Part shown: positions 1-762 of the stretch, one piece after another | Numbering within the stretch: the first letter of the stretch is position 1 | Layout: every line of letters starts with the position of its first letter | Assembly (NCBI RefSeq): GCF_003002925.1 | Contig: NZ_PVTK01000009.1 | Coordinates: 62,001 to 126,000 of the forward strand | Length of the DNA stretch: 64,000 bases | Direction: 5' to 3' | Origin: Vreelandella songnenensis | Lineage (GTDB): Bacteria; Pseudomonadota; Gammaproteobacteria; Pseudomonadales; Halomonadaceae | Translations under genes and position numbers: made by a program | Notes under the pieces: model-generated | Database searches by the model: none | What the model was told of the DNA's origin: nothing | Seen by the model: only the letters and a program-made list of their open reading frames with translations

Positions 1-149
1 CGCTGGCTGGATATCTGCCGCGCGAGTGCTGCCTCTATTGCTACGCTCTGGCGCAGCTGGGCGGGCGTGGGTAACAGCGTGGCGGTACTGGCTTCAGGGG
101 CCGAGGCAGTACGTTTCATGTTCAGGGCTGGGCTTATGGGGGCGTTCAT
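1..149 (-). CDS. aroF: 3-deoxy-7-phosphoheptulonate (DAHP) synthase, N-terminal fragment
   Basis: The first 49 codons of a minus-strand gene are present; the rest lies beyond the left edge. The visible part has a poorly conserved Ala/Thr/Ser-rich start and then the segment LPTPAQLRQ followed by ALARQISSQ. This matches the N-terminal pattern of class I (AroF/G/H type) DAHP synthases, where a TPxQL segment precedes the first helix. The family condenses phosphoenolpyruvate and erythrose-4-phosphate, the first step of aromatic amino-acid synthesis. The ATG (147-149) overlaps the stop of an upstream Tyr-rich leader ORF as ATGA, and a GGAG lies about 8 nt before it. The aromatic leaders upstream independently support an aromatic-pathway gene. 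Which paralogue it is, and its feedback specificity, cannot be read from this fragment. Confidence 0.7.
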   Translation of the reverse strand, partial: MNAPISPALNMKRTASAPEASTATLLPTPAQLRQSVAIEAALARQISSQ

Positions 150-307
150 AAAGGATTCTCCGGACTCGCATGACATCGTTGACTGGCGTTACCACCCAGG
201 CTGGCGCGGTCGGAGGTGGCAGCTTGCACCGACCGCGCGTCGCTAAATCGCCAGCCATAGCCCACATAGCCGGTTGCAGTAGCGTATTGATAAGCGCGAT
301 AAGTCAT
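146..307 (-). CDS. Second leader peptide, Tyr-rich, overlapping the aroF start
   Basis: This is a 53-codon ORF with a strong ribosome site (AAGGAG, about 7 nt before the ATG). Tyr occupies residues 3, 6, 8, 14 and 17, followed by Trp19 and Phe21, so aromatic codons are heavily concentrated in the first 21 positions. The rest is low in aromatics and looks unconstrained. The stop TGA overlaps the ATG of the DAHP synthase gene (ATGA), so the two are probably translationally coupled. The segment GYGWRFS resembles GYWFS in the upstream leader peptide. By analogy with pheL and trpL leaders I infer that ribosome progress over the Tyr codons senses charged tRNA-Tyr. Unlike a classical attenuator, no U-tract terminator follows; only a hairpin (204-238) lies inside the ORF. 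A structural role for the peptide is not excluded. Confidence 0.6.
   Translation of the reverse strand: MTYRAYQYATATGYVGYGWRFSDARSVQAATSDRASLGGNASQRCHASPENPL
204..238 (-). promoter_or_regulatory. Hairpin inside the second aro leader
   Basis: A perfect 10-bp inverted repeat (GCGCGGTCGG and its complement, 204-213 and 229-238) with a 15-nt loop lies just downstream of the Tyr/Trp/Phe codons of leader 2. No T-tract follows on the transcribed strand, so it is not an intrinsic terminator. It could be a ribosome-responsive structure controlling coupling to aroF. Confidence 0.5.
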
Positions 308-377
308 GGTGCCGCTCCTTGATGACGTTTCTATGGCGTTGAAAAGCCGATAGCATTGAACAAAGGGTGCTAAACGC

Positions 378-409
378 AAAAACCCCGGCTGGGTTACCAA
401 CCGGGGTTC
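378..409 (-). terminator. Intrinsic terminator (attenuator) between the two aro leader peptides
   Basis: On the minus strand the RNA reads AACCCCGG, an imperfect inner stem, CCGGGGTT and then more U residues (five A's on the plus strand at 378-382). The outer stem is 8 bp, with a C-A mismatch and three further pairs inside. It sits downstream of leader peptide 1 and upstream of leader peptide 2 and aroF, where a transcription attenuator would be. I did not identify the alternative antiterminator pairing with certainty. Confidence 0.75.
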
Positions 410-433
410 AGACATTCGGCAGGCAACCTAGTG

Positions 434-478
434 GGTGTGCCTGGTGGCGCGACGTCAGACGTCGGCCGCGGGCACACC
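434..478 (-). promoter_or_regulatory. Hairpin spanning the end of leader peptide 1
   Basis: The arms GGTGTGCC/GGCACACC (434-441 and 471-478) enclose a second small stem (450-454 with 460-464). The loop of that inner stem contains the stop codon of leader peptide 1. The 5' arm on the RNA starts directly after the Tyr-Phe-Gly-Tyr-Trp-Phe codons. A ribosome stalled on those codons would therefore mask the arm, as in classical attenuation. Confidence 0.55.
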
Positions 479-580
479 GCCGCTAAACCAATATCCAAAA
501 TAGGCAACACCACGCGCGCTCGCGCCAACCGCCGCCAAGGGCAGGCATTTAGCACGGTGAGCAAAGGCGAGTGTTGGCAT
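455..580 (-). CDS. First leader peptide, aromatic-rich (Tyr/Phe/Trp)
   Basis: This is a 41-codon ORF starting at the ATG at 578-580, with AGGA six nt upstream. Residues 27-32 read YFGYWF, so five of six consecutive codons are aromatic. They are followed by SGG and the stop, which lies in the loop of a hairpin. An intrinsic terminator starts about 45 nt after the stop. This arrangement of small ORF, aromatic codon run, hairpin and terminator upstream of an aromatic-pathway gene fits a transcription-attenuation leader. That it senses aromatic aminoacyl-tRNAs is inference. The N-terminal half has no recognisable features. Confidence 0.6.
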   Translation of the reverse strand: MPTLAFAHRAKCLPLAAVGASARGVAYFGYWFSGGVPAADV

Positions 581-762
581 ATCAATCCTGGTTATTGGCA
601 GGCCGGAAGCGCTGCGAAAATAAGCGTTCAACGTGACGTTTGATGCCACGCATTGGTAAAGCGTTGCTTTATCCTGCCTTCAAGCGTGACAAATGGCAAC
701 TGTTCGTCGCGAAACAGTGGCGCTATTCGATCTTGGCAGGACGTTTAATGCCCCAGGCGTGT

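Follow-up and report, generated by a model that had tools for sequence, protein, structure and literature searches.

The aroF locus and its two upstream reading frames

The window, the whole 64,000-nucleotide stretch of Vreelandella songnenensis DNA analysed here, begins within aroF, a DAHP synthase gene. Two small open reading frames (ORFs) with ribosome sites lie 5' of aroF, and every feature described below is on the minus strand. A first-pass annotation had already noticed both ORFs and good ribosome sites for them, without stating the strand. The basic features are as follows.

1..149, minus strand: start of aroF (DAHP synthase), the gene being truncated at the window edge
158..161, minus strand: aroF ribosome site GGAG, within leader 2, by direct reading
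146..307, minus strand: leader 2 ORF, 53 amino acids, ending in the ATGA overlap with aroF
315..320, minus strand: leader 2 ribosome site AAGGAG, by direct reading
455..580, minus strand: leader 1 ORF, 41 amino acids, with YFGYWF control codons at 502–485
586..589, minus strand: leader 1 ribosome site AGGA, by direct reading

The full AroF protein, taken from the organism's own genome, has 356 residues and is a class I DAHP synthase by family search (TIGR00034, 433.5 bits; PF00793, 265.7 bits), and the AroF of the closest relative, G102, is 93% identical to it. Neither leader peptide matched an NCBIfam or Pfam family. The leader 2 stop codon (TGA, 148–146) and the aroF start codon (ATG, 149–147) overlap as ATGA, confirming the earlier description of a 53-residue leader 2 that overlaps the aroF start and has five Tyr in its first 17 residues (residues 3, 6, 8, 14 and 17). 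Upstream of leader 1, the segment 763–4368 on the minus strand holds ORFs of 254, 508 and 419 amino acids, which we take to resemble flavin reductase, UbiD and Rho. The same genome carries a second DAHP synthase gene (G000:C1:29801-30778), whose product is 49% identical to AroF across the matched part.

Two sets of loci underlie the counts that follow. A search with AroF matched 109 of 121 Halomonadaceae genomes, and 90 of the matched places were read to give the Halomonadaceae set, which was picked by AroF alone. The pseudomonad set comprises L033 and 29 further loci, 30 in all, that belong to the family of genome G282, where 55 of 79 genomes had a match to the Rfam family P15; this set was chosen via leader 1 and is therefore uninformative on the frequency of leader 1 there. 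The label ‘pseudomonad’ (Pseudomonadaceae-like) rests on P15 being a Pseudomonas family. For both leaders, the motif lists were drawn up after examples had been seen, and the relatives within the locus sets are non-independent. The aroF start of each locus is a script prediction, which is doubtful in L059, L066, L069 and L112, and perhaps in others.

Leader 1 and its terminator

Leader 1 carries the YFGYWF codons ahead of a hairpin and an intrinsic terminator, as first annotated; YFGYWF is encoded at 502–485 and the terminator spans 409–380. The annotation lacked the antiterminator and the leader 2 pseudoknot described below, both of which were found in the follow-up. The elements of leader 1 are listed here.

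471..478, minus strand: segment 1, GGTGTGCC, partner of segment 2; helix 1:2 is paired in 99.5% of cells in 48 sequences
434..441, minus strand: segment 2, GGCACACC, partner of segment 1
422..428, minus strand: segment 3, GGTTGCC, the antiterminator strand; 3:4 is paired in 96.5% of cells
391..398, minus strand: segment 4, GGTAACCC, inside the terminator hairpin, partner of segment 3
380..409, minus strand: intrinsic terminator, 13 pairs followed by a T run, with 95.7% of cells paired
382..509, minus strand: sub-threshold match to Rfam P15 (31.1 bits, cut-off 70)

With a broad motif list, the YWF-type motif of leader 1 was present in 90/90 Halomonadaceae loci, and it lies 5' of aroF in 120/120 loci, 30 of which contain leader 1 by construction. 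A script detected the terminator in 79 of the 90 Halomonadaceae loci, and the pairing statistics for leader 1 come from 48 of those 79. The antiterminator is formed by GGGUUGCC paired with GGCAACCC within the terminator (96.5% of cells). As the same bases are used by the antiterminator and the terminator, the two structures are mutually exclusive, which points to a classical attenuator.

Helix 1:2 and the antiterminator jointly showed 37 double-change cells, compared with 11.6 in shuffled and 0–4 in slid controls, while the further pair types of these two helices showed no excess over shuffles (13 vs. 12.8; 323/500). The terminator had 39 double-change cells, against 9.8 shuffled and up to 13 slid; for the number of terminator pairs with a double change, 68 of 500 shuffles reached the same value, so the shuffles were not clearly beaten. 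With an ORF, a ribosome site and a control-codon cluster, followed by a terminator and a mutually exclusive antiterminator, the assignment of leader 1 as a putative ribosome-mediated transcription attenuator is well supported at the level of sequence, its dependence on stalling being carried over from the classical mechanism. In genus g4, all 13 loci (L071–L074, L076–L078, L080, L082, L083, L086, L087 and L089) have leader 1 and its terminator close before aroF and lack the ten fixed bases of leader 2 (see below), and they form a natural single-leader control.

The Rfam family P15 (RF00627) spans leader 1 and the terminator, and its consensus can itself be read as an aromatic leader, although leader 1 of the window does not reach the gathering cut-off of 70 bits. 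In the pseudomonad loci that were read, P15 lies upstream of aroF. The cut-off was reached in 52 of 79 genomes from the family of G282, and a search across the class matched 7 of 369 genomes, one of them above the cut-off. The catalogue lists P15 as an sRNA, not an attenuator; the passages that deal with it suggest a possible riboswitch (PMC2527527) or place it among the sRNAs detected by Livny et al. (PMC2375449). If our reading of leader 1 is true, this catalogued small RNA would be the stub of an attenuator.

Leader 2, its fixed bases and the pseudoknot

Leader 2 contains a short, invariant run of codons, immediately followed by two crossing stems.

244..253, minus strand: fixed ten bases TGG CGA TTT A, containing the W-R-F codons
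176..178, minus strand: second in-frame CGA codon of leader 2
229..238, minus strand: stem S1, 5' strand, core CGGTCGG at 235–229
215..220, minus strand: stem S2, 5' strand, GCCACC
204..213, minus strand: stem S1, 3' strand, core CCGACCG at 213–207
191..196, minus strand: stem S2, 3' strand, GGTGGT

The ten bases TGGCGATTTA were found before aroF in 70/90 Halomonadaceae loci, with L020 having TGGCGATATA, and a protein-level motif for leader 2 was found in 65/90. Every one of the 70 occurrences sits inside an ATG-initiated ORF of 40–61 codons with W-R-F in frame, and in all 70 the frame stays open for at least 30 codons beyond W. The 20 loci that lack the ten bases comprise all 13 of genus g4, four of the 12 of g19, both of g8 and the one of g3; both g8 loci have a different aromatic ORF at the position of leader 2. 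All 30 pseudomonad loci have a W-R-F leader 2, and 29 have the exact ten bases. Across 24 loci from other families of the order, both leaders were present in one (L136), L138 and L146 had one ORF each, and 20 had neither leader at the setting used. L147, also from another family of the order, has two aromatic-rich small ORFs of unrelated sequence lying between 431 and 114 bases upstream of the aroF match and is perhaps a separate two-leader case. The comparison with relatives that the first-pass annotation proposed has thus found the aromatic codons and frames to be kept, and leader 2 is well supported as a conserved leader. As a general element, TGGCGATTTAGC, the ten bases, was rejected, with a single occurrence in its own genome, yet it occurs twice in G010 and G692.

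The 70 Halomonadaceae leader 2 loci were selected by the ten bases, and codon counts were instead based on the protein-level motif. In the 100 in-frame W-R-[F/Y] leaders so defined, Arg is encoded by CGA in 100/100 and the next codon is TTT in 99/100; the following base is A in 99/100, and 99/100 have a further in-frame CGA downstream. For comparison, over 26 long ORFs of the window, 5.1% of all Arg codons are CGA and 38.6% of all Phe codons are TTT. Downstream of W, CGA occurs 105 times in the leader frame of the Halomonadaceae loci compared with 48 and 49 times in the other two frames, and 44 times compared with 21 and 9 in the pseudomonads, where the last CGA starts 12 nt 5' of the stop codon in 27/30. 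Our guess is that CGA is fixed as a slow codon, and leader 2, if it works as proposed below, would provide a directly testable case for why one rare codon is fixed in a leader. By script, the leader 2 stop codon and the aroF start are no more than 7 nt apart in 41 of the 70 Halomonadaceae loci, 12 of which share the 4-nt overlap; in the 30 pseudomonad loci, the stop is mostly 40–48 nt upstream of the start.

The stems 3' of the ten bases, S1 (CGGUCGG/CCGACCG) and S2 (GCCACC/GGUGGC), cross to form an H-type pseudoknot. Across 67 distinct rows, 88.3% of cells are paired, compared with 28–48% when slid; there are 76 double-change cells against 32.5 shuffled and 17–54 slid, and the covariation score is 0.249 against at most 0.096 slid. 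When the sequences were searched one by one, 69/70 pseudoknots were at or under the 5% level of shuffles, and only L005, which has a mismatch, missed it. This search used single-base shuffles only and took the best-scoring register per sequence, so that counts of distinct stems include register shifts, and the MAFFT alignment (A1) misaligned the most divergent pseudoknots. The layout is highly regular: the inner S1 begins 18 nt 3' of the first W base in 62/70, the junction is 0–2 nt in 69/70 and loop 1 is 6–8 nt in 67/70, while the loop sequences vary. Six loci (L084, L085, L093, L094, L095 and L098) keep this layout with other stem sequences. The fixed loop lengths suggest that both stems form at once, rather than as alternative hairpins.

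A scan of further genomes returned at least 118 stretches. Among the 80 listed, 76 encode the leader 2 peptide (the exceptions being L184, L186, L193 and L225). A rough check for aroF no more than 900 bases away was passed by 53 of these 80, and the leader is nevertheless encoded in 23 of the remaining 27. Three pseudomonad loci of genus g343 (L104, L109 and L111) have the same stem pair by eye, with scripted scores that reach only 4–9% of shuffles. Matches to a covariance model of S1 only (R1) were confined to genomes of the organism's own family (4/145 in the order and 2/340 in the class), in a search whose stricter filters may miss divergent forms.

We considered whether the pseudoknot sequesters the aroF Shine–Dalgarno sequence (SD) through its CCUCC and rejected this as a general rule (mean z approximately −0.46, 13/70); CCUCC is absent from the six divergent pseudoknots named above. 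Masking the CCUCC region moved the median accessibility in Halomonadaceae from 0.41 to 0.47, a small gain that leaves room for some role of CCUCC. The consensus nested fold of 62 Halomonadaceae leaders contains S1 and a short outer stem, with nothing closing the aroF start.

In 18 of the 27 pseudomonad loci without the pseudoknot, the Trp-codon segment of leader 2 is able to base-pair with the region of the aroF start (5% level, shuffles), as opposed to 0/3 pseudomonad pseudoknot loci and 2/70 Halomonadaceae loci at the same level, and the pseudomonad complementarity peaks at the Trp codon itself (mean z −2.23 at offset −6). Masking this segment, which mimics a stalled ribosome, raised start accessibility in 16/30 pseudomonad loci and lowered it in 0–1, counts that are non-independent because several of these loci are closely related. 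The same masking gave no accessibility gain in Halomonadaceae (4–5 up and 7–8 down, n = 70), in nested folds that ignore the pseudoknot. The complementarity predicts that stalling at the Trp codon would open the start in pseudomonads, and their leader 2 fits well with a putative erm-type translational attenuator that is on when the cell is starved. In Halomonadaceae, complementarity to the start region was not consistent for any part of leader 2, and sequestration of the start by the control-codon segment, as in erm-type systems, was not found. Pairing partners sought for the ten bases gave only moderate signals, the strongest lying ∼144 nt upstream in pseudomonads (mean z −2.16, 15/27 below −1.5), with a best window of mean z −1.06 in Halomonadaceae. 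By direct reading, the pseudomonad segment complementary to UGGCGA of leader 2 at this distance is segment 3 of leader 1, which may reflect cross-talk or chance.

A proposed two-stage sensor and its relation to known systems

On balance, we favour a two-stage aromatic sensor, in which transcription attenuation would be followed by translational attenuation, both stages reading aromatic aminoacyl-tRNA. In the first stage, scarcity of Tyr-, Trp- or Phe-tRNA would stall the ribosome in YFGYWF and allow helix 1:2 to form, leaving segment 3 free to pair with the terminator loop so that transcription continues; with ample aromatic tRNA, the terminator would form. In the second stage, leader 2 would repeat the aromatic check at translation on those transcripts that escape. 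The aromatic codons of leader 2 end in TGG CGA TTT directly 5' of the pseudoknot, whose core presumably starts near the mRNA entry point of a ribosome that holds CGA in its P site and TTT in its A site. A ribosome waiting there for aromatic tRNA would leave the pseudoknot folded and the start of aroF accessible. Ribosomes finishing leader 2 would instead stop over the ribosome site of aroF and occlude it, as in rtpA, with the net effect that AroF would be made when aromatic amino acids are short. For this second layer, we infer both the action of the pseudoknot and the direction of control.

Of the serial control first suggested for this locus, transcription attenuation followed by a translation-level leader stands as the best reading, but simple stop–start coupling is not general (stop within 7 nt in 41/70; 40–48 nt away in pseudomonads). 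The idea that each leader reads a different tRNA is not supported, as Tyr, Trp and Phe codons are clustered together in both, with leader 2 here the richer in Tyr. Several results weigh against the two-stage sensor itself. In Halomonadaceae, the nested folds show no gain in start accessibility on stalling, consistent complementarity of leader 2 to the start region is lacking, and leader 1 does not clearly beat shuffles on the two measures given above. The leader 2 element is missing from 20/90 Halomonadaceae loci, and in 29/70 the stop is more than 7 nt from the predicted start, which blocking by finished ribosomes cannot fully account for.

More tentatively, leader 2 may be a sensor of a new type acting at translation, with CGA-TTT held at the mouth of the pseudoknot so that the pause time reports aromatic aminoacyl-tRNA and, rather than sequestering of the SD, decides aroF initiation, in series with a transcription attenuator for the same amino acids. 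On this possible scheme, Halomonadaceae and one pseudomonad genus would use the pseudoknot, and in many other pseudomonads these codons would base-pair to the start of aroF instead. If the two-stage sensor is real, an essential pathway would be controlled at its first step once in transcription and again in translation, through two leader peptides reading the same amino acids, and two unrelated RNA solutions (a pseudoknot and start-site pairing) would serve one conserved leader.

The main rival of the two-stage sensor is positive coupling, in which ribosomes that complete leader 2 start again on aroF at ATGA, with the pseudoknot doing no more than tuning throughput. Translation of aroF would then be raised by leader 2 at times of plentiful aromatic tRNA, leaving starvation control to leader 1 alone. 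We regard this as rather unlikely. The ATGA overlap of the window and a frame held through to the stop are what coupling would produce; the 41/70 loci with a nearby stop fit blocking and coupling alike, and the distant-stop loci fit neither simply. Against coupling, the stop in the 30 pseudomonad loci is mostly 40–48 nt upstream. Coupling would also control a biosynthetic gene in the direction opposite to the usual one and leaves the aromatic codons of leader 2 unexplained. It is improbable that the ten bases and pseudoknot are a protein or small-molecule binding site to which leader 2 translation is secondary: the ten bases are indeed fixed at the nucleotide level while the stems change, and most pseudomonad loci read have them without the pseudoknot, but W-R-F is in frame within an ATG ORF in 70/70 loci, the frame is kept to the stop, aromatic codons precede the ten bases and the loop sequences are variable. 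Programmed frameshifting at CGA TTT A, stimulated by a pseudoknot whose constant spacing (18 nt in 62/70) is like that of known frameshift signals, was rejected as highly improbable, as the site has no canonical slippery heptamer (by direct reading) and no conserved shifted frame: only 46 and 44 of the 70 loci keep the other two frames open over 20 or more codons (minima 8 and 3 codons).

The two-stage sensor has parallels among known systems. The trp, his and pheA leaders are ribosome-mediated transcription attenuators, and leader 1 resembles these and the aroF attenuators in placing an aromatic-codon leader, a terminator and, as found here, an antiterminator before a DAHP synthase gene. In Corynebacterium glutamicum, aroF (aroR-aroF) is attenuated by one aromatic leader (PMC11802643), and a Shewanella table lists aroF with an ‘attenuator sensing tyr-tRNA’, with a 1980 E. 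coli reference (PMC2659441). Unlike the single leader described there, the present locus has a second aromatic leader 3' of the terminator. The rtpA (anti-TRAP) gene of Bacillus subtilis has as its second control a leader peptide whose control codons lie near the gene start, which finishing ribosomes block, and it is not known to have a pseudoknot. Text on rtpA in PMC11255114 describes sensing of uncharged tRNA-Trp at transcription and translation, and cites ribosome stalling. The aroF locus shares with rtpA two serial controls and, in the window, a leader that stops where the ribosome site of its gene lies; the first layer of rtpA is a T-box for tryptophan only, whereas here a leader peptide comes first, and no T-box was among the Rfam matches up to E 5 in positions 1–2000 of the window.

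In Actinobacteria, the LEU element before leuA has a conserved pseudoknot beside Leu codons that pair with the SD, although its authors think leader translation unlikely to matter and propose a binding protein (PMC1262725). Here too a pseudoknot lies beside control codons, and in many pseudomonads the Trp-codon segment is predicted to pair with the aroF start; the LEU element concerns leucine, leuA and one leader, as opposed to aromatic codons before aroF. Searches of open-licence papers turned up no report of two aromatic leaders in series before aroF at two levels, of P15 as an aroF attenuator, or of a fixed CGA-TTT with a pseudoknot, and a term search found neither aroF nor P15 in the main text of a premature-terminator survey (PMC2965389). 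The first-pass annotation knew of no two-leader design of this kind; Salmonella mgtCBR (tandem leader ORFs; PMC3641672) and ermB (two leader peptides; PMC8274638) do have two short ORFs in one leader. Their signals are ions or metabolites and erythromycin, and neither has, as proposed here, a pair of aromatic leaders that control a single biosynthetic gene at two levels. Single-leader aroF attenuation, tandem leaders, sensing of one tRNA at both transcription and translation, and a pseudoknot by control codons are all known.
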